Below are positions 29,340 to 63,931 of a DNA stretch of 64,000 nucleotides, piece after piece. A program made the position numbers and the translations under genes. The stretch comes from Hirudinaria manillensis. Lineage: Eukaryota > Annelida > Clitellata > Hirudinida > Hirudinidae. The notes below the pieces were generated by a model. That model saw only the letters and a program-made list of their open reading frames with translations. It searched no databases and was not told the origin of the DNA. Location of the stretch: assembly GCA_034509925.1 (NCBI GenBank), contig CM067527.1, positions 6,752,501 to 6,816,500 of the forward strand. Direction: 5' to 3'. Each line of letters opens with the position of its first letter. The first letter of the stretch is position 1.

Positions 29340-29347
29340 TATAAATA
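29340..29347 (+). promoter_or_regulatory. TATA box of cluster gene 1
   Basis: TATAAATA 40 nt upstream of the ATG at 29380. Boxes at nearly the same distance precede the other cluster genes. Confidence 0.75.
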
Positions 29348-29379
29348 CATTTCAGTTCACTTGCAAGACATCGAGAATT

Positions 29380-32300
29380 ATGATTTTGTTGAAATCATTT
29401 TTCTTCTTTGCCGCACTTGCATGGGCAGAATCTGGTTTGCGTTCAAAATCTATTTTTGGACGTAACGTTTACGTAATTAATAAAAACAAAATGACATCGA
29501 AACATATAATTTCAATAAAAAAAGTTTAATTTTTCTTTATTAATTCAGACACCGTGTGAAACTCTTATCAAAAATGTTTATGATATTTCTAAGAACTAAT
29601 TTTATGATTTAACTTTATTGTTTAACAGCTTCCCCTTCAGAACCGTACCTGATTTATGCAGTGGAACATGCAACGAAAACTGATTTCTATGAGGCCGACT
29701 ATCGCTTGATTGAAACTCGAAAGATCCTCACGATTTTAAACGAAGGAAAAGCCTTGAACAACTTGGTCGTCCGTCAAAATGGCAGGAACAAGTTCTTGTA
29801 TTGGAGTTTCAGCAGATCTGGCAAATTGGAACGTTACGATGTTTCAAACAAAATGGTAGAAGAAATGAAAATAGGTAAGTATCCAACTCCCTTTGCCAAA
29901 ACATATTTTTGATTTATTTTCAAATTATGGTCCTTTAAACGTAATTCTTTATTGTATTTGAGCTATTTTTTTTTTCAAAATGCTCAGATGGTTATAGCTC
30001 CTTTGTTGGACTCGGAGTTAACGACGAAATATATTTATATTATCCAAGCACAAAGAAAATAATAGTTTATGACTTTAATACTGAGAAGAGAATATCAATT
30101 CTCGATGGTCTGAAAAATTTCAAAACTGACTTTCATTGCGTCGATGTAGATCCACGAGATAAAGAGTAAGCTGTGCAGACGATATTTTCACAAAATTAAA
30201 GACAAGACCCAAAGTAACTGTTTAAGGAATTAAATTAGATAAGCAAATATTACTAACATTTAACGAAGAAAGAAATTGTAATTTCGTAAAGACTTTCTGC
30301 GTCTTTATTGTTTATAGACAGTTATTTTTTGCCGAGTGTTCTGACAAGCGATTCACCGGACGTATTTTTGACATCCACGATGAAAGAGTTGTTCCTCTCT
30401 ACAAGCAGCCTCTGACAAAGTGTTTCGATACGTGGAAGATTACACCAAATGGTTTCTAATCGTTTGTTTATTAAATTTTTATTTTCATGTTAGAAAACTG
30501 CCGAATGATAAAATAATGTCTGTTTATATCTCTTTAAACCAACTCATCGTATTTGTCAGAATTTGAACGAGTTAAAAATTGAATTTACCCTTCAGAATTT
30601 CCTTTCCAAAGTAAAATGCATTTACTTTTAGGAAAGCAAGTATACGCCGTTGACGACGCGACAATATATCTGAGTCCAAAAGATGGCGCACCTTTTACAG
30701 AATGCTACCAGGCTGATAAGAAAATACTAGGATTTGCAGTTGGAAATAACGAATTGTTTTTTACAACGCAGGACGGGTAAGCAATTTAGAACTTTTATAT
30801 TAACTCAAAGGTTCAAAATAAAATAAAAATAATTGTTTGTTGATGATGTTTAGGTACGAATTTCTTTATTTTCCTTCGCATTGTAGTAATTTCACCAAGA
30901 AAATTTAGTTTTTATATACCATTGCTCTGATGCAATAGTTTAGATTCACATACTGCATGTGACATGCAATGAGTAACAGTTTAAAATAATGTATAGAAAG
31001 AGTACTTGAAAAGAAAAGTTTGAGAAACGATAATTATGAGATTAGTTGAAGCATGTCATATTTAATGTTTGATGAAAAGCTAGTAAACAGTTGACAAATA
31101 ACAACAACTTAGGAACACAACTTCCAAACTATCAAAAGTGATTACAATGAAGCACAAGGATATTATCCAAGCTGGAGAAATCTATGTCCCCGGAATGGTC
31201 TATAAAATGGCTTTATATCAATGTAAGTCATCAATGGAAATCATTATTATTATTGTTACTCACAATTAAAACATATGCCCCCAAGCAAATTAATACAATT
31301 ACAGACAGCGAACCTGATGAATATTTGATATATGCAATTAAAAATGCGAACAAATCCTTATCGTTCTACAAAACTGATTTCAATCTGAAAAACACCAAAA
31401 GACTTCTAACAACACATTTGGCCAAAACGCCGGTGCCCCATTGGTTCATCAATCACTACGATGACGAGGATGTTTTATACTGGAGTTACAAAGGCTCAGA
31501 CTTGGTCTTCAGTCTTAATATTTTCCATTTCATGTATAAAATACTAATCTTACCGGAAGGTATGTCATCTTTTATTAATAACTAGTGGCAGTTCGATTTT
31601 TTTTCTAAGTATCATAGTTATTGCAGTCAAAAGAGGAATATTTCTTGGTCCAAGTACTGAGGGAAAGTTACGCTTTTATTTCCCTGAAGACAAAAAAATT
31701 CGCGTTTATGATTTTAAAACTGCGACCCTTGAGAAGGAATTGGATGGTTTGGTAAATTCCGGTACCGACCTTCAATTATTTGCCAGAGATCCTCTTCGCA
31801 AGCAGTTGGTAACATGGATATTTTAATGTTTCTCCAATGCGAAAATATTTCAAGCTTAAGAACTGCCAGTAATGATTGCTGCAATGTTTTATTATGAAAA
31901 TGCATTCATTCAAAGTTTTAAACTTTAAACGCAGACAAATTTTTTTTGCCGAGTGTTCTGCAACCAAGAAAACTGGAAAGGTTTTTGACATTAGGAGAAA
32001 CAAGGTATTAAAAACATACAGCCAACCTTTGTCAGATTGCTTCGACAAATGGGGAATCACACCAAATGGTATTGCAATTCTTTAGAGATAGAAATGATTA
32101 TTATATTATCATGAAGTATTACTTTATAGATTTAAAAATCTATCGAAATAATTTTGCTAAAATTTGATTGTGAGTATTTAGCCGATCTTTTGAGTGAGTT
32201 AAACTAACATGATATGAAATCATATGAGTTAAGAAATGCCATTGGATGTCCCTAATCAAGGGTGCTCTCTGGAGAAAATAAGACGACACTTAAGTACTGT

Positions 32301-33142
32301 TGCTATTACTATCCTACGCTACCTATTCGGCCAATCTATCTTGCTAAATTGTTCAACTTTATGCATTTATGATAATTAAGAAAATAAATATCGTTTAGTC
32401 AAGTGGTAATCAAATCTGTAAAATTATGTTGTTGCTTTAAATTGTCAGCCAAGAGAGCCTACGCAGCAAAGGGAAATGTACTTTACATGTCACCAAAGGA
32501 AGGTGAAGCATTTAGTCCGAAGTACTATTTACAAAGCGAAGTTGATGCTTTTGCAGTTGGAAACAATGAGATATTTTTCACAACCGAGGAATATGGGTGA
32601 AATATATTATATTGTAATGTAATATAATGTCATATTAAATAACTAGATCAGTTAATTGTGAAATAAATAGAATATTAGTTTGGGATTACATAAAATTGTA
32701 TAAAATTAACCAAAATATTGGCAATAATAATAATAACGACATTCAATATACAGAAAAATATTCAAAATGTCAAAGAGTGCAACAGGTGTTCAAACAACTC
32801 AATACTACATCGGTAAAGAGGTAACTGCTCTCATCCTGTACCAAAGTAAGTGGATGTATTTGGAACTTTTTCATGTTTTTTAAACGATTATGGTATTCTC
32901 AATATCTATGCTAGTGTATCCTAACATGCTGTTTAAACGTTAATAACAATTCAAAGTGTTTAATGCAATTAACTAATTTGAACTAATTAAATAATTAATT
33001 AATAACAAATTATTTATTGAGATGTGGTAAGAATTTTGACTAGTGAAGCATGTGTCCCTTTAAAAATATTGAAGACTATCATTCACTAGTAATACATCTG
33101 CCAGGGTTAATCAGAAATTATATTCTTTTTGCAGCTGAATAA
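29380..33142 (+). CDS. secreted-family cluster gene 1, two modules (unknown family)
   Basis: Model: join(29380..29434, 29629..29874, 29988..30165, 30318..30451, 30632..30776, 31113..31222, 31305..31559, 31627..31804, 31935..32068, 32449..32596, 32754..32845, 33135..33142), 560 aa. Exon 1 is a signal peptide (MILLKSFFFFAALAWAES). Two modules of about 270 residues follow. Each has a Y-L-I-Y-A strand and a Y-W-S motif (exon 2), Y-x-Y-x-P and V-Y-D-F (exon 3), F-F-A-E-C-S and C-F-D-T/K-W with I-T-P-N-G (exon 4), then Y-A-x-K/D and G-N-N-E-I/L-F-F-T-T (exon 5). Alternating aromatic strands suggest a YWTD-like beta-propeller; this is inference. I do not recognise the family. No second signal exon lies between the modules, and the phase-1 junction 31222/31305 joins them. 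The last exon (8 nt) is uncertain. Confidence 0.7.
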
Positions 33143-34127: not shown

Positions 34128-34135
34128 TATAAAAG
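34128..34135 (+). promoter_or_regulatory. TATA box of cluster gene 2
   Basis: TATAAAAG 44 nt upstream of the ATG at 34172. Confidence 0.7.
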
Positions 34136-34171
34136 CCCGCCAACATGTCACAAGCAAATCAATGAGGGAGT

Positions 34172-37100
34172 ATGGTTTGGCTTAAAATTTTCAACTTGGT
34201 TCTTGTTGCAATTTGTGCAGGATCAGGTGGGGTTTGGTTCGAAATTTACATAAAAATTAAACAATTAAAGCATTCATTTAATGTTAATATTTCATGATTT
34301 ACGGTTATAAATAGCCCTGTCACAAAATGCCTATAAATACGATTAAACATAAATTGTTTAATTTGATTTTTTAATATAAATGTTTTCTAGGTGCTTCACC
34401 GCGATTATTTTATGCTGTAGAAAATGGAAACACAATTGACATCTACAAAGCTGATCTCAATTTAAACAAACACCACAAACTTTTCATGATTCACAATGAC
34501 GGAAAAAAATTGGACAGCTTTTTCATCATTAAAAATAATACGGAAGAGGTATTGTACTACAGTCTCCAACATTCCACTGTTGTCGGATTCTTTAGAATTG
34601 GAAGTGGCATGATGGTGGAGAAGAATTTCGGAGATGGTAATTTGTTCAATATACGTTTTCAATTATTTTAAATGACTGATTAAAGTTTAAGAAAATTAAA
34701 CATTTAAATTGTGACAATAAAAATATTATGTAAAATTTGAAGTTTGTAACATAATCACATATGAACATTAAAGTAATTTAAACATGAACAAGGTCTACCC
34801 CTAAGAAAAGACTTCACATTCAAAAGAGGCCGGAAACAAATGTTATTTTAATGATTTATTTATTTATTTTATTTTTTATTTATTTATTTATTTCTCAACA
34901 AATTGAAGGGTCATCCAATGACCACTAACACAAATTTGAATAAGTACAGCAAATTGAGCGTAAATAAAGTGCAGAAGCAAGCTTAAATTGATAGGTATTT
35001 GTTGAAGTCAGTAGTCGAGATGCAGGATTTAAATCGGGATAAAGTTGAGGAGTTTATTATATCAAGGGGTAAGGAGTTCCAGGGCTTGATGATCCGGTTG
35101 GTGAAAAAGTTCTGCCTGTGACTGGTGAGACACTTCTCTTGGCGTAGACGAAGGGGATGACCACGGGTTCTGGAAGTTAGAAATGTAGGGAACTCTGGAA
35201 TCTTGCATATAGTATGGCCGTGGATTATTTTGTAGCATAGGCATAAGTCACAGATGAGGCGACGATGTTCGAGTGTTTTGAGTCCGAGTTGTTTTAGTCT
35301 GTTGGGGTAGGGCAGAGCTCTGAGACCAGGAATCATTCTTGTGAAATATTTTTGCACCTTTTCTATTTTAGTTTTAAGCTGTTTGGTGTGTGGGTTCCAT
35401 ATTGGGGAGCAGTATTCGAGAATCGGCCGGACGAAGGAGCAGTATGCTTTGGTTAAAATGTTTTTGTTCCTGGTGCGAAAGCATTTGGAAATCAAATGTA
35501 ACCTCACAAATGCTTTGTGGACAATATTGCTGATGTGTGCCTTGTAAGTAAGTTTGTCGTCGATGAGGACTCCGAGATCCCGGGTAGTTTCTAATAGAGG
35601 TACTGTTTGTGATGCAATTGTATAATGTCTAGGTGGAGTCCTGGTACGAGCTGACCTGACAGAGATTTGGATGCATTTCTCCAGAGCAAGCTGTAGTTGC
35701 CACCTGTTGCTCCATGACACCAACTTATTAATAGCAGACTGCAGGGAGGAACTTTGAGTGAGTGGTGATGCTGAGTACAGTTTGATATCGTCAGCAAATA
35801 GTTTTGATTTGACGTAGTTATCGTTAAGCGTATCGGTAACATCGTTAATGTATTGTTGTAACCCGGGGTCTGATGAATTAATTAACGTAAGGATATCTTT
35901 ATTGGATTTAACTAATGGCAAATACGGCTGGACGATTTGGTCGATTGCTTGTCCCGACGGAACTGCCTAATGACTCGAATCGCTAGATTCGACTTCGAAC
36001 TAAAAGATTCTGAATATTAACTAAGCTTAATTAATTAATTAATTAATTAATTAATTAATGTCAGGGATCCAACATTGCCCCCTCCTTAAATCTGTTCGTC
36101 CCGAACAGGCTGTTCTGTCTCGCCGTGGTATTTTGCTAATCGATTGCTGTGGACCACCTTCATTCTAGTCCTTGCTGATTTCTGTATGCGGTATACCACG
36201 TCGTTTATTTTCTTTATGATTCGGTATGGTCCTTCCCAATCTTTTTGTAACTTTGGCGACTTCCCTTTTTTTCGTTGGGGGTTGTATAGCCAGACTAGTT
36301 CATTTTCTTTAAAGCTTATATCATTGGCTTGCCTATCATATCTCGCTTTGGCTTGATCGCTATTAACACTAATATTTTTCCGGGCAACCTGGTGTGTATC
36401 GGCCAATGTATTTCTTAGGCTTGAAACGTAGTCACATGCCGACTTAGGTTCCTCTGCTCTTCCGAACATCATATCGGCAGGAAGACGAATCTCCCTCCCG
36501 AATGTCATTTTCGATGGACTGATTCCTGTCGTTTTATGCACGGCTGTCCGGTAGGCCATAAGGAAAAGTGGCAGGTATCTGTCCCAGTCATCTTGCTGTT
36601 CACTTACCATTTTTGACAAATACTGTTCCATGGTCCTGTTAAATCTCTCGACCATACCGTCCGATTGCGGATGCAATGCAGTGGTTCTTGTTTTATGTAT
36701 TCCAAGGTTTTCGCATAGCTCTTGAAATATTTTCGACTCGAAATTCCTTCCTTGGTCCGAATGTAACTCTAATGGCACCCCGAATCGACTAATCCAATTA
36801 TTTACGAGAGCATCAGCTACATTTTCCGCCTCCTGATTTGGCAGTGCAAACGCTTCGGTCCATTTGGTGAAGTAATCGCTGATCACTAATATGTACCGAT
36901 TTCCCTTCTTTGATGCAGGGAATGGTCCGGCAATATCCAAAGCTATTCTTTCAAAAGGTACTCCCACATTATAGGGTTGCATTAGTCCTTTAGTCTTCTT
37001 TTGAGGACCTCTACTGGTTGCGCAATTATTGCACTTTCTACACCACTCCTCAACGTCTTGTTTGTAGTGCAACCAGTAAAACCTCTCCCTCACCTTCCTG

Positions 37101-40100
37101 ATGGTTTTATTCACTCCTAGGTGTCCACCTGAGGTTCCGTTATGGAATTCTTGTAACACCTCAGAGACGCAAGATCTCGGAAGTACTATTTGAAGGTGAT
37201 AGTCGGTGCCATCCTCTGTTTCCCACTTCCTATGTAGGAGTCCATTACTAATTCTCAAGGAATCCCACTGTGCCCAATAGGACTTAGTAACTTCTCCGTG
37301 CTCCGCTATCTGTTGCCAATCTGGTTTCACCCCGGCCTCCATCCACTGTAGTATGGGTGCAAGTGCTTCGTCTCTTAATTGTAGATCTCGTAACCCGCTT
37401 TCTGTCCAGGGCTCGGGAGCCGTGATACGAATTTGTCGACATTCTTCGGTCTCCTGTTTTTTCTCTGCGTTGTTGCAGTGTCTGCAGTTAAGTTGACAAG
37501 GACGTCGTGATAGCGCATCAGCGTTGTTGTGTATTTGACCTCTCCTGTGTTCAATATTGAACTGAAAACCCTGTAGTCTTTCAATCCACCTCGCCATTTG
37601 ACCTTCTGGGTTTTTAAAGTTCAACAGCCACCTCAGAGAGGCGTGATCCGTTCTTAGCAAAAACGGCTGGCCCAGAAGATATTTCTGGAAGTGTTTCATG
37701 GATTCTACTGCTGCTAATAATTCTCTCCTGGTTACGCAATAGTTTCTTTCCGCTTTGGACAGTGAACGGCTATAAAATGCCAGAACTTTTTCCTCGTTTC
37801 CAACCTGCTGGGAAAGAACTGCCCCGATTCCACAGTTACTGGCATCTGTATCGAGGATAAAAGGTAATCCGGGAATAGGATATGCCAGGATCGGTGCCGT
37901 TGTCATAGCTTCTTTCAGTTTATCAAATGCTTTCTCACAGCTGTCGTTCCAGATAAATGGCTTGCCTTTTACAGTAAGCTCATGAAGGTTTTTTGCGATG
38001 TTTGAAAAGTTGGCAATAAATCGTCTGTAATAGGTACAAAGTCCTAAGAAGCTTTGAAGTTCTTGGATATTTTTGGGTACAGGCCAATTTTTTACTACCT
38101 CGACTTTATCTGGATCTGTACTAACACCTTCAGAAGACACGATATGGCCAAGGTATTTGACTTCTTTTTTAAAGAGTGAGCATTTCTTTGGACTCAGTTT
38201 CATGCCTGCCTCTCTAATCCTACTAAACACTTCTCGGAGGTTGTCTAAATGTTCTCCAAATGTTTTTCCGACAACAATTATGTCATCCAAATATACCAGG
38301 CATACATTCCAGTTGAGTCCCCTTAGTATGTGTTCCATTAATCTTTCAAACGTCGCGGGGGCATTGCATAGCCCGAACGGCATGACAGTGAATTGCCATA
38401 ATCCTTCACCTGTCGAGAAGGCCGTTTTTTCTCTATCGTCAGGATGTAACTCCACTTGCCAGTAACCACTTTTGAGATCTAACGTGGAAAAAATTTTGAT
38501 CCCGAGAGAGTGTCTAAAGTATCATCGATTCTAGGTAAGGGGTAGCTGTCCTTAAGTGTCATTTCGTTCAGCTTTCTATAGTCGACACAAAAACGAAGTG
38601 ATCCATCTTTCTTCTTAACGAGTACCACTGGTGAGCTCCAGGGGCTATTTGACGGTTCAATAACCCCCTGGTCTTGCATTTCTTTTATCATTTCCTTGGC
38701 GTTTGCTCTTGTAGCTAAAGGAAGTGGACGGGGGTTTTGTCGAATGGGTTTAGCACCGGCCGTATTTATTTGATGTTGCACGAGGTTAGTTCTACCCAAA
38801 GGGCTGTCTTGTTCAGCCATTATATCCTGAAATTCGCTAAGCAGCTTTTCCGCTTGTTGATAATCTTCTTTTTGTAGGATTTTGTTTAAGTCTTTCAGGA
38901 GATTGTCCATCAATGGTTTAGGCATGGTATCCCTTTTGATATGCTTATTTCCACTTCCATCTAATGTTAATATGCGTTCTAGGTTCCTGCAAAGTGCGAC
39001 AGGTGTTCCTGCTTTGATCTGTTGTTCCTGGTCAGATAGATTCATTACTCTCAGTGGAACTCTGCCGGTGTTTAGCCTGACTAGTGCTCGTCCTATTAGT
39101 AGTCCTTGGCCAATGCCCGATTGATCTTCGACTGCTCCTATACCAAATTTTGTGTGGTCGCCCTCTAGCCCGCCCCAAATTAAACTTTCCGACTGTGCTG
39201 GGATGGTCTCGTCCTGCAATACTTTTACAAATGTGTCTTTAATTTCTGTACCCCCGTAATTTAAAGGAATCTCCATCGTTCCTTGTTGAAGGGTACCGCC
39301 CTTCATGTCAATGGAAATTCCATAGCGTCGCATGAAATCCAATCCCAGTATACATTCATCTGTTATATTGGCTATCATAAATTCCTGTTCGAATGACTTG
39401 CCTCCTAAATCCACTGTAATAGTTGTGGTTCCTTGAACTGGCACTAATTCTCCGGTGGCTGTTTTTAGCTTGTAGTTGTTGGTCGTTACTTTACTGTTTC
39501 CTGCCAACTTTGGTTGGACAATAGATGTAGATGCCCCTGTGTCTATTACAAGATTATATTCCTTCCCTCCAATTTTTCCTTTAACCTCTAGTGATGATCC
39601 TTTTCCCAATGCCGTAACGTGAAAGACGAGTGGGGCATTTCGAGTTTGCTGAAACGATCTTTGCCCCTTAAAATCAGAAGCTTCAGGTTTTTCTGATTTA
39701 TAGGGCTCTCTCCAGTACTGCTGTTTTTTGGAGAAGGTCGTTCTACATTCTCGGGCTAAATGGCCTGGCTTGTTACACCTGAAGCACCTTGGTCTTCTAT
39801 CTATTTCCTGGAATCTTAAGTTTCTTGGGACTTGCTGAAGTCATTGATTTGTCGGGCTATTTTTTTAATCATCTCTCTGTCTTTGTCATTATCTTTATCT
39901 TTCTCCTTGCCTCTGTTTTCCTGAGCTTCAATTTTCTTTACATTCAAGCTTTTTTGGATTGAGGCTCTTGCCGCTTCTATGGAGATTGCAAACGCCAATG
40001 CTTCATGGCTGGCCTTTATTCCATGAATTTTTAGTGCCATTTTGGTTTCCGCATCCCTTATCCCATCAACGAAGGCGTCAGTTACAATGTTTTCAATGAA

Positions 40101-43100
40101 ATCTGTTGACTGTCCTGGATGGGCTAAGTATGCGAGCCTTCTGACATCAGCCTCTAATTCTTGGAGTGATTCGCCCTGTTTTTGCGTACGGTTTTTTAAT
40201 TCGTTTTTATGTACTTCCAGCATGTGGCCATTCCCAAATCTTCTTTCCATTGCTTCTGCTATTTCGGAATAGGCTTTACAATGTAACATTGTTTGTAAAA
40301 GCTCGGCTGCTCTCCCTCGCAGTACCATAATCAGCTCTGTTGCCTTTTCTTCCTCAGTCCATCTGTTACTTACGGCGGCAGTTTCAAACTGATGTCTAAA
40401 CACGGCCCATGGCCCTTGTCCATCGAACAGTGGTGGTTTTACCGTTTTCTCTCTTACGCACGTTTCTAATTTCGGTTCGTTGTACTTTTTAAATTTCTCT
40501 CTTTCTTTTCTCTGTTCTTCTTTTAGTGCATCTATTTCTGCTCTGACCTGTTTTCTTAAGTCGGCCATCTCCTGTTCCGTGTGTGATATGAGGTTGGCTA
40601 CGTCAGTTTTTACCTCTTCCCGTAGGACATCCATGGCTACCTGGAAGTTGGCTATATCGGATTTCACATCTGACCGCAAAGCATCAATGCTGCAAATCAT
40701 ATCTGACCGTAAAACATGATTGTCTGACCGCAAAGCATCATTGTCGGATTTCATATCTGACCGCAAAGCATCCAGGGCATTATTGTTGGCTTCTATAGCA
40801 GTCTGAAGGGCTTCCCATTGTTTTTCTTTTTGAACCCCAAATTCATACTCCGACGGATCGTGATTATTTTCCAAAAGCCATTCCTCGAGCCGTCCTTGTA
40901 GTTCGGCTTTTAGGCCAGTTGCGTCCAGGCCTCGATTCTTTAGTTCTCGTCTCAAATCGGGAACGCGCAAATCGTCCAGTATTTTAGGTCCCATTTCTGT
41001 CGTCAAAAACTCGCTGTCTTTACCTTTAGTGAATCGATATCTCTTTACGACGTTAAATCCCACTCCTGACACCAATGTTGTAACCCGGGGTCTGATGAAT
41101 TAATTAACGTAAGGATATCTTTATTGGATTTAACTAATGGCAAATACGGCTGGACGATTTGGTCGATTGCTTGTCCCGACGGAACTGCCTAATGACTCGA
41201 ATCGCTAGATTCGACTTCGAACTAAAAGATTCTGAATATTAACTAAACTTTAATTAATTAATTATTTAATTAATTAATTAATGTCAGGGATCCAACAGTA
41301 TATAAGGAAAAGTGTAGGTCCAAGCACACTCCCCTGAGGCACGCCACTAATCACGTCCATTTCATTGGAAAGGTGGCCATTAATTTTTACTGCCTGGGTT
41401 CGGTTGGATAAGAAAGCTTCAAGCCATAAAAGTAGATTGCCTGAGATGCCATAGGCCTGAAGTTTAGATAGTAGCTTTAGGTGAGACACCGAGTCGAAGG
41501 CTTTTCTAAAGTCAAAGTATATTATGTCTGTTCCCTGGTTCATTGATGCCGACCAATCATATGTACATTCAATCAGGTTGGAGCACGTATTTTTCTAAAG
41601 TCAAAGTATATTATGTCTGTTCCCTGGTTCATTGATGCCGACCAATCATATGTACATTCAATCAGGTTGGAGCACGTAGATCTGGAATTTAAAAAGCCAT
41701 GCTGTTCAGGTGATATGAGGTTGTTAGCTTGAAGGTAGTTTAAGATGTCTTTGTTGATCATCCGTTCCATTGCTCGACAGCAGGAGGATGTGAGCGATAT
41801 TGGTCGGTAGTTACCAGGATCAGAAGTGGCCCCTTTTTTGTGTACGGGGGTTACATGGGCAGATCTCCAATCAAGGGGTAATTCGTGCATATTGAAGGAG
41901 AAGTTGAAGATATGGGAGAGTGGCAAACAGAGACCAGCAGCGCAGTTTCTGAGGAGAGTGTTAGTGATTCCATCCGGACCAGATGAGAGGGACGGTTTGA
42001 GCTTGCGGAGTGTCTGGTATGTGCGATCAGGAGTGAACATTAATTGATCAATTTTTTTGCTGGTGCGTGGAGACATAGCATGGCATATATATCATTTATA
42101 ATTCTTTATTACCATATTTTCTTTATATATTACCATATTTTATTTTAATGATTTATAATTCTTTATTACTATATTTTCACCATTTTTCACCATCACCATA
42201 TTTGAATATATTTGAATATAACGTTTTGATGCTTGAATATTTTTGTTTCAATATCGTGAATGTCATTTGAATTTCAATAATGAAATTGTTTTAAGCTTTA
42301 AATTGTGATTATTTATATTTAGACATTCAAGAGGTTATTATGACTTATCCTGATTTAATTTCTACTAAAAATATTAATTTTGTAAATATTTATTTACCAG
42401 CTTCTTGGAAAGGAATATATCTCGGACCCAGTAGCGATGGAAAATTATATTTTTATTTCCCAGACGATAAAAAGATTCGCCTTTATGACCTTCGCGATGG
42501 AAAGACTAGTGCTGAAAAACGAAAAATGGTAAAAGAAATGGATGGCGTGGTAGATCATAGCAAAACAATGCATTGCTTTGCCAGAGACCCCCGAAACGAG
42601 TTGGTAATTTCTGTCATAACATATGTATCATTATCATTAAAGTTACTGATTATTTTCTGGCTAATTTAATTTAAAGTAAGAATACGCTCGACTTCATACT
42701 TCTTCAATTTTCTTAACTTGCGACTACAGGCAAATTTTTTTTGTGGAGTGTTCTAAGTCGAGCCAGTCTGGAAAATTTTTTGACATGAAGGAGGGGAAGA
42801 TATTGGAGGAATATACTCAATCTGTTCCCATCTGCTTTGACAAATGCGAAATAACACCAGATGGTCAGAATTTTGGCAGCCGAAAGCTCAGTTTTTAGAT
42901 ATTAAATAAAAATGTAGATAACTTTAAAATTGCTAATAATAAAGTAACATAAATTTTTTTAAAACACGCATATTATTTTTATTTAGAGATTTGATTCAAG
43001 CCCTATGATTGGGATTTGAGATGAAATTTTATTGAATAATGCCATTGTTATTGAATTTTAACTTTGAATCATCAGGACAAAATACATTCGGTGTCAAGGG

Positions 43101-43456
43101 TAATGGATCTTATTTCAATGCAAAGAAAACCGCTGGATTTCTGATTTATTATAACTTCGGGAAAGATGACGTTACTAACGTTGCAATAGGAAACAATGAG
43201 ATATTCTACACCACGAACGAGAATGGGTAGACAATTCCAATTAGATATTTATTGCTAAAATATAATTTAATTTAAAAACAACTGACTTGACGGCAACACT
43301 TTTATAAGTAACAAGAAGATATGTTCAATGTATCAATATCATATTAACCTTAATGTCTACAGAAAAATATTCAAAGTGGAAAATATTGAACAAGGAAAAG
43401 TTAATAAAAAGTCGTACAACATTCAAGGAAAAGTAATAGATCTCTTCGTGTTCTGA
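34172..43456 (+). CDS. secreted-family cluster gene 2, one module, split by nested transposons
   Basis: Model: join(34172..34226, 34391..34636, 42401..42599, 42730..42863, 43076..43226, 43363..43456), 292 aa. Exon 1 is a signal peptide (MVWLKIFNLVLVAICAGS). Exons 1, 2 and 4 have the same lengths as in gene 1 (55, 246, 134 nt). Exon 3 is 21 nt longer. Motifs: F-Y-A-V-E (exon 2), Y-F-Y-F-P-D-D-K-K-I-R-L-Y-D (exon 3), V-E-C-S and C-F-D-K (exon 4, where the usual T-W is lost), and G-N-N-E-I-F-Y-T-T (exon 5). Exon 6 ends in an in-frame TGA, so the protein stops after one module. Intron 2 is 7.8 kb because a LINE, itself carrying a Gypsy element, sits in it. The reading frame is otherwise intact. 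Whether the intron still splices is unknown. Confidence 0.7.
34843..34859. repeat. left copy of candidate 17-bp LINE target-site duplication
   Basis: TTATTTTAATGATTTAT here is identical to 42140-42156 on the other side of the LINE. The sequence is AT-rich and the right copy lies in a local duplication, so chance similarity is not excluded. Confidence 0.5.
34860..35853 (-). mobile_element. LINE (CR1/Jockey-like), 3' half: C-terminal reverse transcriptase, 3' UTR and tail
   Basis: The minus-strand frame 34983-35853 encodes the C-terminal half of a non-LTR reverse transcriptase: the F-A-D-D catalytic box, a T-R-D-L-G-V-L-I-D motif and the W-N-S-L-P tail. The 3' end is a (TAAA)n-type tract (about 34860-34895 in plus coordinates) in place of a poly(A) tail. 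The coding frame is broken at 35853 by the Gypsy insertion; its N-terminal half resumes at 41302. No endonuclease domain is present because the copy is truncated at its 5' end. Confidence 0.85.
35854..36074 (-). repeat. Gypsy 3' LTR
   Basis: On minus it starts TGTTGGATCCCTGACATT and ends TACAACA, with an AATAAA poly(A) signal in the distal part. Includes an (AATT)n tract that differs slightly from the other LTR. Confidence 0.95.
36075..36090 (-). other. polypurine tract of the Gypsy element
   Basis: On minus, AAGGAGGGGGCAA lies immediately before the 3' LTR, the usual site of plus-strand DNA priming. Confidence 0.7.
36086..38487 (-). pseudogene. Gypsy pol, downstream frame: RT C-terminus, RNase H, integrase
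   Basis: Open frame of about 790 codons. Reverse transcriptase Y-L-D-D box near residue 55 counted from 38455. RNase H starts near 200 (L-D-T-D-A-S). The integrase HHCC zinc region is near 455-495 (H-L-G-V-N ... C-R-K-C-N-N-C). The DDE core follows with L-D-I-A-G-P, H-S-D-Q-G-R and M-V-E-R-F-N. It ends just before the polypurine tract, with no env. The frame is separated from the upstream pol frame by a one-base length change in an A6 run (38488-38493), inside the RT palm, so this copy should not make a full polyprotein unless the change is a sequencing error. Confidence 0.9.
38479..39840 (-). pseudogene. Gypsy pol, upstream frame: CCHC knuckle, protease, RT N-terminus
   Basis: Open from 39840. 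A zinc knuckle C-x2-C-x4-H-x4-C (C-F-R-C ... G-H-L-A-R-E-C) lies at about 39742-39790. An aspartic protease D-T-G-A-S-T-S motif lies near 39520-39545. The start of reverse transcriptase (V-K-K-K-D-G-S-L-R-F-C-V-D-Y-R-K-L-N) comes next, and the frame stops at 38479 after the homopolymer break. It overlaps the gag stop by 25 nt in the -1 frame, so gag-pol would need -1 frameshifting; I found no canonical slippery heptamer in the overlap. Confidence 0.88.
39816..40994 (-). CDS. Gypsy gag with N-terminal SAP domain
   Basis: 392 aa from the ATG at 40994 (M-G-P-K-I-L-D-D). A SAP-type DNA-binding motif follows at once (L-R-V-P-D-L-R-R-E-L ... L-K-A-E-L-Q-G-R-L). Then comes a Lys/Glu-rich coiled coil with tandem A-L-R-S-D repeats, and a retroviral-type gag core (W-A-V-F-R-H-Q-F-E, then E-S-L-Q-E-L). 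The zinc knuckle is not in this frame but in the pol frame. The frame is open upstream into the primer site but without an ATG. Confidence 0.85.
   Translation of the reverse strand: MGPKILDDLRVPDLRRELKNRGLDATGLKAELQGRLEEWLLENNHDPSEYEFGVQKEKQWEALQTAIEANNNALDALRSDMKSDNDALRSDNHVLRSDMICSIDALRSDVKSDIANFQVAMDVLREEVKTDVANLISHTEQEMADLRKQVRAEIDALKEEQRKEREKFKKYNEPKLETCVREKTVKPPLFDGQGPWAVFRHQFETAAVSNRWTEEEKATELIMVLRGRAAELLQTMLHCKAYSEIAEAMERRFGNGHMLEVHKNELKNRTQKQGESLQELEADVRRLAYLAHPGQSTDFIENIVTDAFVDGIRDAETKMALKIHGIKASHEALAFAISIEAARASIQKSLNVKKIEAQENRGKEKDKDNDKDREMIKKIARQINDFSKSQET
41057..41074 (-). other. primer binding site, tRNA-Leu type
   Basis: On minus, TGGTGTCAGGAGTGGGAT begins one nucleotide after the 5' LTR. 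It matches the complement of a tRNA-Leu 3' end (...TCCTGACACCA), by recollection of tRNA-Leu acceptor sequences. Confidence 0.8.
41076..41297 (-). repeat. Gypsy 5' LTR
   Basis: 222 bp, TG...CA ends on minus, near-identical to 35854-36074. Confidence 0.95.
41302..42139 (-). mobile_element. LINE (CR1/Jockey-like), 5' part: N-terminal reverse transcriptase
   Basis: Minus frames up to 42076 encode S-S-G-P-D-G-I, N-Y-R-P-I-S-L-T-S, F-D-F-R-K-A-F-D-S-V and V-P-Q-G-S-V-L-G-P, continuous in order with the half at 34983-35853. A tandem duplication at 41502-41678 breaks the frame. No endonuclease region, so the copy is 5'-truncated. The exact 5' end is between 42076 and 42139. Confidence 0.85.
41502..41678. 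repeat. 88-bp direct tandem duplication inside the LINE
   Basis: 41502-41589 and 41591-41678 read as the same 88 bases, separated by one extra T. The 89-bp period shifts the reverse transcriptase frame. Confidence 0.9.
42140..42156. repeat. right copy of candidate 17-bp LINE target-site duplication
   Basis: Identical to 34843-34859. Confidence 0.5.
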
Positions 43457-49500: not shown

Positions 49501-49844
49501 GTTAAGTTAATTATTAATCATATAAATATATTACGTAAAGCCTAAAATATAATTTTGGCGAATTTAATACTCATTCCGTAAATAATTTGGATTGTTTTGC
49601 AGGAAAATTTATCACTTAACCAAAATAAAGGAACAGTTGGAAATAATAGAACACAATGTTAGAGGCACAATAACATCCTTAGTTGTTTTTCAAAGTGAGT
49701 TATTTTCACACATTTATTATTTATAATACTATTAGATATCTTTGATCAAAAGGGATTCAAAAAGGACTTGCAATTCATCATATAAACCTTTTATAATAAC
49801 GAAGAAATTGGCAGTTGCATTTATTGTCAGTCCATATTTTATGA
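46522..49844 (+). CDS. secreted-family cluster gene 3, one intact module
   Basis: Model: join(46522..46576, 47216..47464, 48555..48732, 48798..48925, 49280..49421, 49603..49694, 49831..49844), 285 aa. Exon 1 (55 nt) is a signal peptide (MIWSKLCVFLLAAAFVKS). Exon 2 has Y-L-I-F-S and L-F-W-S. Exon 3 has Y-F-Y-L-P and V-Y-K-F, and a conserved Cys in M-K-C. Exon 4 has F-A-A-C-S and C-F-D-T-W. Exon 5 has G-N-N-E-I-F-Y-T-T. The final 14-nt exon (I-H-I-L-stop) is chosen because its acceptor and phase fit and AATAAA follows. Remains of what looks like its second module lie at 52272-52668 behind a Helitron-like insertion, so this gene may once have had two modules. Confidence 0.65.
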
Positions 49845-52271: not shown

Positions 52272-52668
52272 AAGATTTACGGTGAAGGACTACAAAGGCT
52301 TTTCTTTGTTTTATAAACTTGGTTTTGACCTTAAAAAACTTGAATTTCTTGCGAGAACTCCTAATTTTAGTGCACCATTTGACAAACTGTACTTGAGTTC
52401 AAATGTACTGTATTGGAGTTATAAGAAATCAGATGCAGTTGGTCGTCTAGATATATCCAGCAAAAAAGAGCAATTCATTTCCATTCCTGAAGGTTAATAT
52501 TTCGAATTTCAAACACGGTTGAACATATTGTTGGGTTATAACAATATTTATGGGAATTCATGACTGTCGCAGCCAGAATGGGTACATTTGTTGGGCTTGG
52601 ACATGACAATAACTTACACTTTTATTCTCCCGAATCAAAAACATTCGCTGTTTATGCGAATGACTTTA
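52272..52668 (+). pseudogene. decayed second module of cluster gene 3 (exons 2-3)
   Basis: 52272-52492 is the family exon 2 without its start: it lacks the Y-L-I-Y-A part but keeps V-L-Y-W-S-Y-K-K-S-D and the E-G end with a GT donor. The 5' cut coincides with the Helitron-like edge, and the frame no longer fits a phase-1 junction. 52573-52674 is the first half of exon 3 (G-T-F-V-G-L-G ... L-H-F-Y-S-P-E-S-K) ending in a stop where a LINE scrap begins. Exons 4-6 are not found. Confidence 0.8.
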
Positions 52669-52760: not shown

Positions 52761-52891
52761 TGACTAGTTTTAATGTTATCTGATAGATATTATGTATTTG
52801 TAATGCATCGGTTAGTATGACACGTCAATATCGTAAAGGGATTCGTAACGTTCAAATAAGCTTTTTGACTCTACTTGTTAATATAGCATAT

Positions 52892-53639: not shown

Positions 53640-53972
53640 TCAAATCCTAGAAAGAGTGAAAAAGAATACTTTTAGGTTGAGATGCATGTACCAATACGTC
53701 AAAGTGCCGTTTCATTAATAGAACTGCAAAGTTAAGGAACACTTTTCCCGATGAGCTGGTGTCGTCAAACACCTTTTATCGGTTTAGAAACTCTAATTTA
53801 AAAAATTGATCTGAACAGGTTCCTAGCAGGTTCAAAGCAAACAAAATTGAAAAGTTTTTATGGAACCATCTCACTCGCCCTGCCAGAATGTTATTTTTTC
53901 TTCTAAATATTGTTGGTCATATTAGTGGCCCTTTTAGTGTCCTTTGACTGGCTGGTAGAATAAATAAATTAA
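53640..53972 (+). mobile_element. LINE 3' end fragment
   Basis: The frame 53708-53809 reads R-F-I-N-R-T-A-K-L-R-N-T-F-P-D-E-L and F-Y-R-F-R-N, the end of a non-LTR reverse transcriptase, followed by a UTR ending in an AAATAAATAAATT tail. Confidence 0.6.
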
Positions 53973-53975
53973 TAA

Positions 53976-55188: not shown

Positions 55189-55196
55189 TATAAATA
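55189..55196 (+). promoter_or_regulatory. TATA box of cluster gene 4
   Basis: TATAAATA 41 nt upstream of the ATG at 55230. Confidence 0.75.
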
Positions 55197-55229
55197 CCTC
55201 CCATCGTGGTAGGTATTCACTGAAGGAAG

Positions 55230-58200
55230 ATGATTTGGATGAAATTGTTTTTCTTGCTGTTTGCTATCGCAAATGGCGAACCAGATTGTTCGGTTAATGT
55301 TAATGTTTCAGATTCTCCGCAGCAATCTTACTTGGTTTATGCAGTGGAAAATGGAAATCACGTTGCATTTTACGAAACGGACTTTGCTTTGAACTCTCCT
55401 CGACAATTAATGTCGACCGACAAGAACGGAGGCGTCTTGAGCAATCTGTTCATTGGTACGAATGAAAACGAAAGAATTGTGTACTGGAAATATAACCACT
55501 CCAACGACATTTATCGTTACGACATTTCCAGCAAAACAAACAAAGTGAAAGAACTTGATCCAGGTCACCATCTTGTCCGAATTTTTCCGAAGTTTTGATG
55601 CGAATTCCTATCGTGAGTTTGAATGAAGGATCTTGTATTACAGACAAAGAAAGCCAATTCCTGGGTCTTGGCAAGGAAAACCAGGTGTACCTTTATTTAC
55701 CGGGATCAAAGGTTATTAAAGTTTATGATTACGAAAGTGGAAAAATATTATTGGAATTGGATGGTCTCAAAGACGCAAAAACAGACATGCACTGCGTTGA
55801 TGTGGATCCTCGAGGGAGAGGGTTGGTATTTAATATTAGATATTAATAATTTATTGGCTATAAATTAACAATATTTTCATTAATTAGTTGTTAGCTACAA
55901 ATTAATAATAGCATTTAAATGAGAAAGAAAACGCTTTCCAGCAAAGTTTATTATTTTTAATTAATTTGTCTTCTTTTAAATATATTTTGAATAAATTTAT
56001 TTTTCCTACAAATTCAAAAAAATTAAAACATCCTTTCACAGGCATTTGTTCTTTGCCGAATGTTCCGAAACTGTCTTCAATGGAAAGATCTTCGACGTCA
56101 ACGAAAAGGAAGTCCTTCAGTCATACGAACAAAGTCTGCCCAAATGCTTTGAAACATGGAGAATCACACCCGATGGTAATTTTTATCATCGTATTCATAT
56201 GATCCATTTGCTACTGCAAATCCTATAAAGTAGAAATTAATGCTTTTAAACTACATTTTACCAGCTAAAAAAGTATATGCTGTTCATAAGAACGAAGTCT
56301 ACATATCCTATGAAGAAGGAGAACCGTTCATCAAATATCATGAGTCCGATAGCAATATTTTAGGATTTTCTGCTGGAAATAACGACTTATTCTACGGAAC
56401 TGAGAACGGGTCGAAATTTACATTTCCATATTTGCTTTTGAAATCTGATTTTAAGATTTGTAGTTAATCTTGTTATTATCGTAATTTATTCATGCCGTTA
56501 TATTCGACTTGTTATTTCATAACAGAAAACTGGTAAAATTAGAGGGTCCTCCGAACAACAATAGATTTCTCAAAAAAGAAATCAATGTTCAAGGAAAAGC
56601 CACTAAATTGGCCTTGCATCAATGTAAGCAATTTTATTCTTATCTAAACATTAATCAGGGATGTTACTTATTCTCTCGGATAAGCAGTATTATATGATTG
56701 TTTGCAATGTTTAACAATGAACGCCATAAAAAACATAATTCTATGCACTGACATCATGTATAATAATGTAATGCAGCAAGAGTTTTGTATTGACTATGGC
56801 TGCACTAGCTTGAAGTTTTCTACACTAAATCCATTGTCCACAGTAAATGCTCTTTAATTGTACTATTAACCCTGTCCAGTAAATGTATTGAATATTTCAA
56901 TTTAAAATTTGCCTTTGCTGATAAAATTTATTCCAAAATAGATTGGCAACCAGAAAAATATTTGATCTTCGCGACGGAAGACGAAAAGGGGTTCCCGACA
57001 TTTTATAAATCAGATTTCAATTTGGAGAACAAGGAAAAACTTGGAGTAGTTGCCAAGCTTGCAGGACAAGTTGACAGATTGTACATAGGCGATAATTTGA
57101 ACGGACAAGTTCTATATTGGAGTTACAAAGGAAGTCTTAATGTGGGACGTCTTGAATTTTACAGAAAAAATACGACAATCTTATCCTTAGGTGAATATGC
57201 CATTTCACGTATTAATTGTGAAGCTGCAAACATATAGATCGATTATATTTATGTATTATAAAGAATACCAATTTGCATTTATATCTATTACTTATTATAT
57301 ATGCGACATCAAACTCAACGTATAATATTATTCTATCATTTAACAAAAAATACATCTAAATCATACATCAATTTCAGCCAATGGAATATTTGTTGGACCT
57401 GGAACCTACGAAGATTTATACTTTTATAATCCCACTTCAAAATCTATTGATATCCATAACATAGGAACTATGAAAAAGGTGAAAACAATAAAAGTTACGG
57501 ATGAATCAAATGTTGATTTTAAATTCATGAGCAGGAATCCATGCAATAAAGAGTTGGCATCTTTGACTGCCTCGTTTTTTACGTTTATTTTCCGATCTTT
57601 CATAAATGTACATTTGTTGGCAGCTTGGCATACTTTGAAAATTGTTCTCCCAACGTTACGGGGCTAGTTTATGATCTTAAGAAGGAGAAGATATTACGAA
57701 ATTACTCCATTAATAGTACATTGTGCATGGATTCATGGACTCTGATGCCAAATGGTTTTCAGAAAATTTTAAATTTATTTATTGCGTAATTTCCTCGCAA
57801 TATTTTTTTTAATCTGTGACATTTTCTTTTTTCCAGCCGATCGGGTTTACGCCGTGAAGGATAAATCAATTTATAGAACAAATGGCTTATTATTTGAAGA
57901 ATTTTATAAACACGACAACAAAATCGATCACATTGCTGCTGGAATCGACGAAACATTCTTTACGACTGGCGAGACAAGGTTGAAATAATTTTTGATATTT
58001 CGTTTTTAAATTTCGAATATATGTGATACTAGAATAAAATATGATAAACTATTTAAAATATCTCGAAACTTTTGCCAAGCCTTTTGAATTATAAAATAAT
58101 TTACATAAATATTATGAGGCTACATGTTATATTATGAAACACCGAAGGAAAATATTCAAGTTGACAAAGAAAAATGACGAGGTCGAAGTTAAAAAGACGG

Positions 58201-58471
58201 AATATGCTGTTGATGGAAAAGTTATTGCTTTGCTTGTGCATCAACGTATGTTCTATTTATTCTGCTACAATCAATTTATTTAACTCGTATTCTGCATTTT
58301 CTGTTAAATTTATGTAATACTTTTGAATTATATTTGCATTGATGTCGTGATTTAAAATCATGGAAATTATTTATAATATTTGATTTATTAATTATATTAT
58401 TTAATTAATTTATCTCACCAATTTGTTTTCAAACAGATGTTTTCAGTGCAACGTGTTCAGACCAATTCTAA
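55230..58471 (+). CDS. secreted-family cluster gene 4, two modules
   Basis: Model: join(55230..55563, 55644..55821, 56042..56175, 56265..56409, 56526..56623, 56942..57190, 57378..57552, 57624..57754, 57837..57978, 58148..58245, 58437..58471), 572 aa, all phases fit. The signal peptide (MIWMKLFFLLFAIANG) and exon 2 are fused into one exon: intron 1, present in the other copies, is absent. Module 1 (to about residue 296) has I-V-Y-W-K-Y, V-Y-L-Y-L-P, M-H-C-V-D-V-D-P, F-A-E-C-S-E, C-F-E-T-W and G-N-N-D-L-F-Y. Module 2 is more diverged: V-L-Y-W-S-Y-K-G-S and L-Y-F-Y-N-P are kept, exon 4 has Y-F-E-N-C-S and M-D-S-W, and exon 5 reads G-I-D-E-T-F-F-T-T. Exon 7 ends S-A-T-C-S-D-Q-F. Donor gtcgaa after exon 5 of module 1 is weak. 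Confidence 0.75.
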
Positions 58472-60029: not shown

Positions 60030-60036
60030 TATAAAT
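60030..60036 (+). promoter_or_regulatory. TATA box of cluster gene 5
   Basis: TATAAAT 40 nt upstream of the ATG at 60070. Confidence 0.7.
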
Positions 60037-60069
60037 GCTTGTTTTTTGACAGGATATGGCAGGTGAAAC

Positions 60070-63000
60070 ATGATTTGGTTCAATTTGATTAAAACGTTTA
60101 TGTTGTTGGGCGCAACAACAGCTACATTATCAGGTATGATTAAAGTTTCATCATAACAATAAGTAGGGTTAGGGTTACGTTATGATGTTAACTGATTCAT
60201 ATAACGTTGATACAGAATCTGAGATGCATCTAAACTTTTTCTTATATCAGGCTCTCAACAAGAGTGTTACATTGTGTATGCATCAGAAAATAAATCTTCT
60301 ATTGACTTCTATGAAGCGGACTTTCAACTGGACAAAACTCAAAAATTCTTAACAATTAGTACAAAAAACAAAGGTGTCCTAGATAATCTTTTCACCAGCG
60401 CAGATGAAAATAAAAAACTTTTATACTGGAAACACAAAGGATCAGACTCCGTTAATAAGTATGATTTCTCAAGTAAATCGCAAGAAGAACAGAAACTCGG
60501 CCAAGGTTTTTACCTTGCGTTTGATTAACTAATTAATTAATTAATTTTGAATCTATAACATTGAACTTCTCAATGAATCTGCACTTCGTTTCAAATTATG
60601 AAGTTAAACGATGCCTAGTAACAATTGTATAATTACATAAAAGAAATGATAATCATGCAGATACTGACAGCATATTTCTTGGACTTGGCGAACAAGACCA
60701 AATATATCTTTATTCTCCTGGAACGAAAATTCTTAAAGGTTATGACTTTAAAACCGGAAAGGAAATATTCAGTCTCGATGGACTCCAAAGTGAACAAACC
60801 GACATGAAATGTGTCGATGTTGACCCTCGAGATAGAAAGTTCGTATTTTGAATATGTTATCTTCTTATTAATTCTCGTTTCAAAATACAAACTTTTTCAT
60901 TTATTAGTACTTTTTGTCATTATTCCACAGTTGGAGATAAACCCGACTCCATATTCACACATGTTGTATTTCTGACCTTGAAATATTTCAACGTAGTAGT
61001 GATAATAGTAAAGTATCAGAAACTGAGCTCAGCATAAATTAGCTTTTAATTACTTATTTAGCCTATCTTGAGATTGCTTTTGAGAAACAAAAAGGCAGGT
61101 AATAGTATTAAAAAGGAGTAGTAGATCTAATACAGTGCGTGTCATAAGGTTGGGACAGGGGCTAAAGTTTTACATTTTGTCTAGTTTTCTGAAAATCCGT
61201 AGCGTGTAATTGCCCAAAGTTTCAATTATTTCATGCCTCTATTCTCACTTAATAAAATTTCAATATGTTTGTGAAGCATAATTTGCATATGAATGACACT
61301 ACTTGGAAAAATCCCTTTAATGTTGTTTAGAGGCGTTTCAAAGATTAAGGATGGTGTCTCTTCCTGTGCAGGAAATAGCATTTTATTACATGGACCACTA
61401 CTAGTGGATATTATAATAAGGTTACATATATAAAGGGTAATGTTAAATAATTATTTGATTTAATAAAAAAATGCTAGTTAAGCTTATTATAATTGGATTC
61501 TTGCTGAAATGGAGAAAGGACAAATTAAGGTATTAAATGAGCTAAATAAAGTCATTTTCTGAAATTTCAAAAGTGTTTAAATGTTCCAGAAATGTTCTCA
61601 GATGATTTTTAAAGGATCCAGATAGTTATAGAACCACCTAAGTATAAGGAAGACCTCGAACACTGGATCATCGTCAGAAGAGAATTCTTGTTCGTGAAGC
61701 TTGCAAGGGAGAATTTTCTTCAACGGGGCTTAAAAAAAAGTTGAAATTGAATTTAACCAAGTCTCCAATATGTAGATACCTTCGGAGAAGCCGATTTTTA
61801 AAGTATAGAAAGCGCCAGTAGAAGACATTCTTGACAAAACATCATAAAAGGATTTGATTGAATTGGCTCGAAGAGATTATGAGTTTGAATGTGATTTGGA
61901 GCATTGCAATTTTTCAGATGAGAAACATTTTAAGTTTGACAGTCCATATGGGTCCACATGTTATTGGCATAATGTCAGAAGTCCCTAAAATCACTCTTGA
62001 AAAGAAATTTTGGAGGTGATTGTTGGGCCGCCATTTCTTCTCTTGGTTCATCAGATGTGGTGGTCTTAAAGGGGAAACAAAATTGCTCAGAATGTGTTTA
62101 AATTATAAAAAAAATACCTCCTATGGCTATACATTAGATTTAAAATGGATAAGGTTATCTTTTAACAAAATAATGGCTCCATCCACATCACAATACCAAA
62201 AAAGGTTATTTTCCAGAAGAAGAATCTATGTCTTAAAGTGGTCTGATTCGACTTCCGGCCCAAATTCCTACTGAAAATGTGTTGGGATTGCTCAATAATC
62301 AAGTATATTCTAATGTTAGGCAAAAACCTAGCACTTTGAATTGCAAAAAATGTCTGAGCGAGGAGATGATAAAGTTGGACAATAAGAGGCTGAAACTCTT
62401 GTTGAAATCAATGAAAGATCGAGTTCAGGAAGTATTTAAAAAAAAAGAATGACAAAACACATTGTCAGCTTTATTTATTTTAGATTTTAAACGTTTGTTT
62501 TAACCGGAAAAATAAAGATTTTTGCTTTCATATTAGGTTCACCGACTTTCACTTTTTATCATATTTCCAGTTTTTTGCTTAAATTAGAAAATATCGTTGC
62601 CCAAAATCACTGAAATTAATATCTCCCAGTAGCTAATGAACATCTACGTTTCATATAAATAAATGGTTTATATATGACTTTTATAAACAAAATTATGGCT
62701 AAAAAACGTGGGTGTCCCAACCTTATGACACGCACTGTATTTAGCACCCCTATCCTTAAGCTCGTCTTGACTGTGTGCCGAACACGGGAGCGGTTTCTTC
62801 CTTGAATTAATTGCCTAGTTCAGAATGGTCATCTGATATCCGGGTATTAATAAACAAATTCGTCGGAGAACTCTTGACATTCATTTCTGATTCATACTTA
62901 TTCTTAGCATTTTAAAGATTTACCGAAATAATTTGAATACGTAACATTAAACTAATTGAAATGGTTACTCAAAGCAGCATTTATGAAATGCATTTTCTCC

Positions 63001-63931
63001 AATGCAGGCAATTGTTCTTTGCCGAGTGTTCTGGAACCGCTTACACAGGAAAGGTTTTTGATGTCAGCCAGAAAAAAGTCCTTCAAGCTTATAACCAGGT
63101 TCTACCCAAGTGTTTCGAAACTTGGAGGATTACCCCAGATGGTAATTGACATTATTTTATTTTAATATTAAAGTAATTAAAACTCGATCATCACCATACG
63201 AATGCCAAATGGGTTGAATCAGTACATCATCGATGACATGTATTGTTAAAGCTAAAGAATACATCATCACTGAGAAACCAAATAAAATACCCCAAAAGAC
63301 AAATATTTTGAATTAATTTGTACATTTAGAACTTCATTCTTCATCTATGAAATTTGGTTTATTTTATATTAAATCTTATAAAACAAGAGCTTTGTATTTT
63401 CATCAGCTAAACGTGCTTATGCTGTTAAAGGGAAAACAGTTTACGTGTCCATCGAAGAAGGCGAAGAATTTGTAAAATACCACGAGGCTGAAAATAAAAT
63501 TCTTGGATTTGCTGCTGGGAATAAGGAGTTATTTTATACAACTAAAAAGGGGTTAAAGATGCTTTTTCTTAGCAAATTATTGCTATTCTTGCTCGAACAG
63601 TACAAGATAATGCACTAGTCAACCTATGATTTTAAAATTGGTCAGGGTTGGGGAGATATGGCCGCTAACAGATTTTGTTTGCGTGGCTGGTGATAACTAT
63701 TTTTTTTTAATGCTTTTTCCGCAACAAAAATGGCAGCCTCTCTCATTCTTCGTGGCTACGCCCAGTGATAGAATATAATACACGAACAAAGAAGGACATC
63801 GTATAATACAATGGTTTAAAATTTAAAATATAGAAAACTGGTGAAATTGGAAGGGCCTATGAACAACAATAGATTTCTTCAAAAGCAAATCGAAATTCCA
63901 CCTACTGTGAACAAAATAGCCTTGCATCAAT
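60070..63931 (+). CDS. secreted-family cluster gene 5, first module, continues beyond the window
   Basis: Partial model: join(60070..60133, 60251..60505, 60661..60838, 63008..63141, 63407..63551, 63834..63931, then out of window). Signal peptide MIWFNLIKTFMLLGATTA (exon 1 is 64 nt, three codons longer than usual). Exon 2 has Y-I-V-Y-A-S-E-N and L-L-Y-W-K-H-K-G-S-D. Exon 3 has I-Y-L-Y-S-P and M-K-C-V-D-V-D-P. Exon 4 has F-F-A-E-C-S and C-F-E-T-W-R-I-T-P-D-G. Exon 5 has Y-A-V-K and G-N-K-E-L-F-Y-T-T. Exons 3, 4, 5 and 6 are 178, 134, 145 and 98 nt, the same as in module 1 of gene 4. Intron 3 is 2.2 kb because a Tc1/mariner element sits in it. The last exon ends in phase 1 like the inter-module junctions, so a second module may follow. 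Confidence 0.75.
60164..60177. repeat. short TTAGGG run in intron 1 of cluster gene 5
   Basis: Two adjacent TTAGGG-phase hexamers (TAGGGTTAGGGTTA). Confidence 0.6.
61133..62737 (+). mobile_element. Tc1/mariner element (Tc3-like), 1.6 kb, inactive, in intron 3 of gene 5
   Basis: Perfect 25-bp terminal inverted repeats: 61133-61157 starts CAGTGCGTGTCATAAGGT and 62713-62737 is its reverse complement. TA dinucleotides flank both ends (61131-61132 and 62738-62739), the expected target duplication. Broken plus frames between about 61480 and 62452 encode a transposase: first catalytic Asp in F-S-D-E-K (about 61911-61925), a Q-x-N box near 62166 where the second Asp appears to be Asn, and the third residue Glu in T-E-N-V-L-G near 62273. 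Several stops and shifts. Lengths and motif spacing fit the Tc1 group. Confidence 0.9.

Follow-up and report, generated by a model that had tools for sequence, protein, structure and literature searches.

The window analysed here, a stretch of 64,000 bases (C2:6752501-6816500) within a leech genome that was searched over 148,429,096 bases in 23 contigs, carries on its forward strand eight modules (W1-W8) of a predicted secreted protein family, each module encoding approximately 270 residues. W1, W2, W4, W6, W7, and W8 possess five exons (e1-e5), W3 is split by transposable elements, and W5 is a fragment. Gene G2 (55230..58471), formed by W6 (type A1) and W7 (type B), has a complete frame of 572 amino acids in 11 exons, running from an ATG at 55230 to a TAA at 58471. 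The W6 exons lie at 55230-55563, 55644-55821, 56042-56175, 56265-56409, and 56526-56623, the first being shared by the signal sequence and e1, and those of W7, whose junctions were spliced by hand, at 56942-57190, 57378-57552, 57624-57754, 57837-57978, 58148-58245, and 58437-58471. All 10 introns are bounded by GT-AG and their phases read 1, 2, 1, 2, 1 and again 1, 2, 1, 2, 1; the intron between the modules (56624..56941) is phase 1 on both sides and contains no TATAAAW word. A TATA box (55189..55195) is located 41 bases upstream of the start codon. Assuming cleavage after residue 15, a position chosen by eye, mature G2 would have 557 amino acids, a mass of 63.8 kDa, 8 Cys, and 7 N-glycosylation sequons.

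The same arrangement is found in two other forward-strand genes of the window. Gene G1 (29380..32844), comprising W1 (A1) and W2 (B), has its signal exon at 29380-29434, W1 e1 at 29629-29874, the end of W1 e5 at 31222, the start of W2 e1 at 31305, and the end of W2 e5, the last exon reached by the models, at about 32844; its TATA box, TATAAAT (29340..29346), is placed 40 bases upstream of the start codon. The first module of gene G3 is W8 (A1; 60070..63931), with a signal exon at 60070-60133 and a TATA box (60030..60036) also 40 bases upstream of the start codon, and its second module, X9 (B), begins at C2:6816709, beyond the window end. For W8 e1/e2, two splice runs picked different donors and the phase-scored model was preferred. 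The W8 e2/e3 intron harbors an inverted repeat of 25 bases, with arms at 61133 and 62713, that encloses 1.6 kb (61133-62737) and likely represents a decayed Tc1/mariner-type element, the frame of the gene staying open. Module W4 (B; 46522..49693, forward strand), whose own signal exon lies at 46522, is apparently a single-module gene, and W5 (52276..52658, forward strand) consists of e1 and half of e2.

Copy W3 (34172..43450, forward strand) is broken, with a signal exon at 34172 and e1 at 34399-34605 separated by transposable elements from e2-e5 at 42409-43450. Since its e1 is A1-like and the remainder B-like, as judged by eye, W3 is possibly a hybrid. Its interior (34983-42091, reverse strand) encodes Gypsy-like gag and pol frames (36086-41099), with reverse-transcriptase pieces belonging to a different element on either side and on the same strand (34983-35966 and 41274-42091), a layout that resembles the insertion of one element into another. 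Elsewhere in the window, two forward-strand open frames, 770 and 765 codons long (9583-11895 and 20844-23141), show C2H2 zinc-finger-like motifs and similar ends by eye, and they look like tandem paralogues. A further forward-strand open frame (13407-14492) resembles the end of a calcium-channel gamma subunit, and a long TATTATA-like simple repeat (6168-6539) can be read as repeated IILYY in several open frames, these being chance frames of the repeat.

Exon profiles of e1-e4 were applied to the window itself, to 100 kb on its right, and, on its left, to two 9-kb pieces, the approximately 140 kb between those pieces and the window lying outside the count. Within the interval C2:6.597-6.900 Mb, approximately 300 kb of one chromosome, they located 24 modules: C01-C04 to the left of the window, the eight modules inside it, and, to its right, X9-X16 on the forward strand and Y17-Y20 on the reverse strand. 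Eighteen modules are on the forward strand and six (C03, C04, and Y17-Y20) on the reverse strand; X10 is a fragment according to the exon profiles. A search of the whole genome with W8 as the query returned at least 80 matches, weak ones (E up to 1) included, and all of them fall at C2:6.597-6.900 Mb. The family stands above chance because the exon-profile E-values are low (down to 2.8e-33), the four exons keep one constant order, and the splice phases remained unchanged when the script was given no preference. The original prediction, made from the window, had described five copies and two decayed ones over 35 kb with shared motifs such as Y-W-S, V-Y-D, and F-F-A-E-C-S. The motifs, the strand, the signal peptides, and the exon order are all present in the window, and translated searches with one gene model recovered the motifs repeatedly in the stretch named. 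The tandem same-strand copies are also real; however, the window holds eight modules rather than seven, and the array extends well beyond it. The word F-F-A-E-C by itself is not diagnostic of the family, with 36 occurrences in the genome when searched as a DNA pattern, the majority outside the cluster.

An unrooted tree of e1-e4, in which several deep nodes are weak (support 0.09-0.85), grouped the modules into type A1 (W1, W6, W8, X13, X15, Y18, and Y20), type A2 (X11, X14, X16, Y17, and Y19), type B (W2-W5, W7, X9, X12, C01, and C02), and the C03/C04 group. Modules X11 and X14 (C2:6828973 and C2:6836968), located 8 kb apart, share 99% identical residues with a dS of 0.01, which points to a very recent duplication.

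Sixteen copies were spliced by script, once with the expected phases favoured in the scoring and once without such weighting, and the phases were identical. Of the 16 models, 14 have a phase-1 e1/e2 junction, the exceptions being the broken copies Y17 and Y18; e2/e3 is phase 2 in all 13 solved cases (W7, X14, and Y18 were left unsolved by the script), e3/e4 is phase 1 in all 13 (W7 and Y18 unsolved by the script, X13 without e4), and e4/e5 is phase 2 in 4/4. The strict exon grammar previously proposed is thus upheld at all solved junctions (phases 1, 2, 1, 2) except e1/e2 of the two broken copies. Exon e5 was found in W1-W4, W6-W8, X9, X11, X12, X14-X16, Y17, Y19, and Y20, with some weak E-values, and a phase-1 acceptor could be read by eye in most e1 exons, those of X11, X14, Y18, W5, and X15 being ambiguous.

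Among the libraries tried, the family appears to match no named family, as single-sequence searches of the modules gave no Pfam family at the cut-off and no PDB chain. This agrees with the earlier description of the family as unrecognised, and a confident match to a well-described family, the outcome named at the time as speaking against it, was not found in Pfam or PDB. Ten modules yielded 10 Pfam matches, all sub-cut-off, four of them to propeller models; the reversed-letter controls of these modules yielded three weak matches, one to a propeller model. Eleven members of A1 matched 14 families weakly (best E 0.0058). Neither PF00058 nor PF03022 (MRJP) was matched in the modules by the Pfam searches, including the best 25 matches listed for the A1 members, and the 21 PF00058 matches of the genome include none in the cluster. 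Three stronger-looking results were discarded. The profile match to the designed propeller Tako8 (E 1.6e-7) counted one stretch six times, its repeats being identical and each individual match having an E of 15 or worse; that to RACK1 (E 0.0011) had a best stretch of 0.3; and the NAT match (PF04768; E 0.00053, 20.2 bits versus a cut-off of 27) concerned a single member in an alternative W8 splice and was taken as chance.

A profile of YWTD blades from the same genome, selected by their motif (21 motif hits, 16 unique, two dropped by eye, 14 used), matched the W8 model at residues 75-95, 145-161, 210-218, and 234-245, and weakly at 113-132, implying blade starts near residues 65, 142, 187, and 227 and, weakly, 96. 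Its best score was 18.98, compared with at most 15.7 for column shuffles and 12.17 for the reversed profile, and the best four matches summed to 54.7, compared with at most 42.8 for shuffles; both measures exceeded 100/100 column shuffles. Five of the six expected units were matched in one register with roughly even spacing, the single match probabilities being low (6.15%, 1.09%, and lower) and the match implying residue 96 (6.65) scoring lower than two one-column matches. Taken singly, units U2, U3, and U4 beat 40/40 shuffles, and U1, U5, and U6 did not. A propensity count assigned 88 strand and 19 helix residues out of 280. Two Cys are conserved, one in 17/17 modules and the other in 94% of the 17, and they probably form a disulphide. 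The first blade may be split between both module ends, a blade shared between the two ends being a usual closure of propellers.

The module fold is most likely a YWTD-like six-bladed beta-propeller, and the original suggestion of a YWTD-like propeller gains from the in-register profile comparison, with 0/100 shuffles as good. A non-propeller all-beta fold, or membership in another propeller lineage (NHL, SMP-30, MRJP, or WD40), is less likely and keeps an appreciable minority chance. The internal repeat is weak (2 of 15 unit pairs beat 20/20 shuffles) and the sub-cut-off matches are scattered among several propeller types, as would be expected under such a reading; however, the YWTD profile falls in a single, roughly evenly spaced register, and no MRJP match was detected in the genome by a search without a working control.

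The family proteins are predicted to be secreted with an N-terminal signal peptide, in line with the earlier claim, on the basis of nine hydrophobic start exons of 15-21 residues recognised by eye and hydropathy. These precede 7/7 A1 modules as well as W3 and W4. A TATAAAW word lies 40-54 bases upstream of the ATG in seven of the nine, being absent for W4 and X13, on a same-strand background of 0.86 per kb. A rule by which a signal exon and TATA word occur only before A1 modules was rejected, because both W3 and W4 are preceded by a signal exon, and W3 also by a TATA word. The claim that every copy opens with a signal exon was correct for W1, W3, W4, W6, and W8, but no such exon was found for W2, W7, or W5.

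From splicing models, we infer that the usual gene comprises two modules, the second joined in frame, which departs from the initial description of genes with one module and one signal exon apiece. For all seven A1 modules, the next module on the same strand is of type A2 or B, and in the five spliced pairs, with inter-module introns of 82, 318, 277, 370, and 188 bases, the end of A1 e5 in phase 1 meets the start of the next e1 in phase 1. Open frames of 538-556 amino acids span both modules in four pairs besides G2: G1, X15-X16, and Y20-Y19 are open across both modules as far as e5, as is G3 except at X9 e1/e2, where there is no GT donor and a GC donor fits. Alternatively, each module could be its own gene, the second modules having unrecognised signal exons and the phase match being a by-product of duplication. 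W4, and perhaps W3, does have its own signal exon, W7 and X9 have apparent last exons of their own, and poly(A)-like hexamers occur in 6/7 inter-module intervals. In addition, the narrow start-pattern scan that found no signal exon in the seven inter-module intervals also missed those of W1, W6, and W8, which visual inspection did reveal. However, the W1-W2 intron, with a gtaagt donor, has just 82 bases and offers no space for a promoter and a signal exon; the 5/5 solved inter-module junctions join phase 1 to phase 1; and no signal exon was recognised for any of the seven second modules, nor does any of them have a TATA word within 60 bases, the TATAAAW words of 3/7 intervals all lying farther than 60 bases from the second e1. 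The separate-gene arrangement is therefore considered improbable. These hexamers (A[AT]TAAA in 6/7 intervals), tried as a test of one gene versus two, gave no separation.

The ratio dN/dS, calculated by NG86 on exon cores of 16 pairs (dS being above 1 and rough in nine of them), ranged from 0.20 to 0.80, below 1 in 16/16 pairs and at most 0.50 in 13. The higher values belong to Y18/Y20 (0.62; Y18 has a stop), C01/C02 (0.64), and X11/X14 (0.80, with the dS of 0.01). The description of the family as fast-evolving holds in that the copies are strongly divergent, but the ratios, the check proposed for it, do not exceed 1. That the family is tandem, duplicating, and decaying is borne out by an array in which intact and broken copies are both present. 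Six copies are damaged or partial, namely W3 (retroelements between e1 and e2), W5, X10, X13 (15 residues of e4), Y17, and Y18, and no valid e2/e3 junction was obtained for X14; nevertheless, with the G2 frame complete, other pairs open, dN/dS below 1, and TATA words conserved, a mostly decayed array whose family no longer works is highly improbable.

Three protein searches retrieved four short relatives in a second genome, P0001-P0003 (e1) and P0004 (e3), probably on one contig of 1,140,142 bases (ENA). The best identity of P0001 to the present genome is 56%, and it therefore derives from another genome. In an e1-only tree, P0003 fell in a clade with W5, C01, and C02 (support 0.98), and P0001 and P0002 stood beside W7/X9 at a node with a support of just 0.10; the latter two are 88% identical to each other and nearest by identity to X9 (0.59). 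P0004 is nearest to A2, sharing 34 of 43 residues with Y17 and Y19, 33 with X16, and 27 with W8. At least type A2 and one B subtype thus seem to predate the divergence of the two genomes, and P0001/P0002 seem to have arisen from a more recent duplication. No relative was detected in viral contigs or plasmids, nor, with P0001 alone as the query, in prokaryote genome contigs.

Taken as a whole, these genes are probably a leech family of secreted proteins of approximately 550-570 residues, with a signal peptide and usually two YWTD-like-propeller modules, that grew by duplication. The array probably grew through duplication of both two-module genes and single modules, the module being a symmetric phase 1-1 block whose end-to-end joining would keep the frame. 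The residues that stay conserved across the family (Y-W, F-x-x-C, C-F-x-x-W, and T/S-P-D/N) look structural and no catalytic set was seen, and a ligand-binding scaffold is therefore expected. Such a scaffold would be secreted to bind outside molecules, varying between copies on a constant core; secretion, duplication, and constrained divergence would fit a binding protein. Our guess is a secreted binding scaffold, perhaps salivary; the effector, saliva-like, or reproductive roles first suggested are candidates. An action in saliva on host molecules is a tentative assignment, held with the same low confidence as a site other than those considered here, and reproductive or cocoon secretion and mucus or defence are each somewhat less likely. 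It is likewise doubtful, and offered as speculation, that the array constitutes an arsenal of secreted double beta-propellers which bind host haemostatic or signalling molecules in saliva and arose from phase 1-1 block duplication. By size alone, a family member could even correspond to an older leech activity of which just the mass is established, for instance Calin (about 65 kDa, compared with 63.8 kDa for mature G2).

Leech secretions are mined for drugs, and the array offers apparently intact secreted genes with no family match in the libraries tried, which, if expressed in glands, would be a new class of leech secreted binder. It also illustrates protein growth by a repeated symmetric-phase exon block, with intact, possibly hybrid, and decayed copies adjoining one another. 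Topic searches of open-access main texts found no description of the family, and six family peptides searched in open-access papers returned a single unrelated paper. The word "propeller" was absent from the portions of the PMC7191736, PMC10671345, and PMC10087013 main texts covered.

Among known systems, the LDL-receptor class B (YWTD) propellers (PF00058) resemble the modules in their blade pattern: unit 2 carries L-Y-W on its second strand, units 4 and 6 carry F-F-A-E and F-Y-T-T at the corresponding place, and the spacing is 31-46 residues. In contrast, the leech modules are not scored by PF00058, no EGF or LDL-A partner appeared in the Pfam results, and the complete leech protein is made up of a signal peptide followed by two modules. 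MRJP/Yellow-related salivary propellers occur in sand flies and, if both inferences hold, would likewise be secreted propellers of a blood feeder; the leech modules differ in having no PF03022 match, and no relation is claimed. The present genome contains 13 destabilase matches and a single match to the Hirudin family (33.9 bits, above the cut-off, at model positions 17-42 of 64), which mark it as that of a leech, hirudins not being known outside leeches. An arthropod source was rejected, a search without a working control giving no Chitin_bind_4 match. The portions of the leech literature covered report many salivary proteins of unknown kind and clustered salivary genes (PMC7191736). The salivary and antithrombotic clusters described there (PMC7191736, PMC10671345) consist of small Cys-rich inhibitors and enzymes, unlike the array, and share with it the local duplication of secreted genes.
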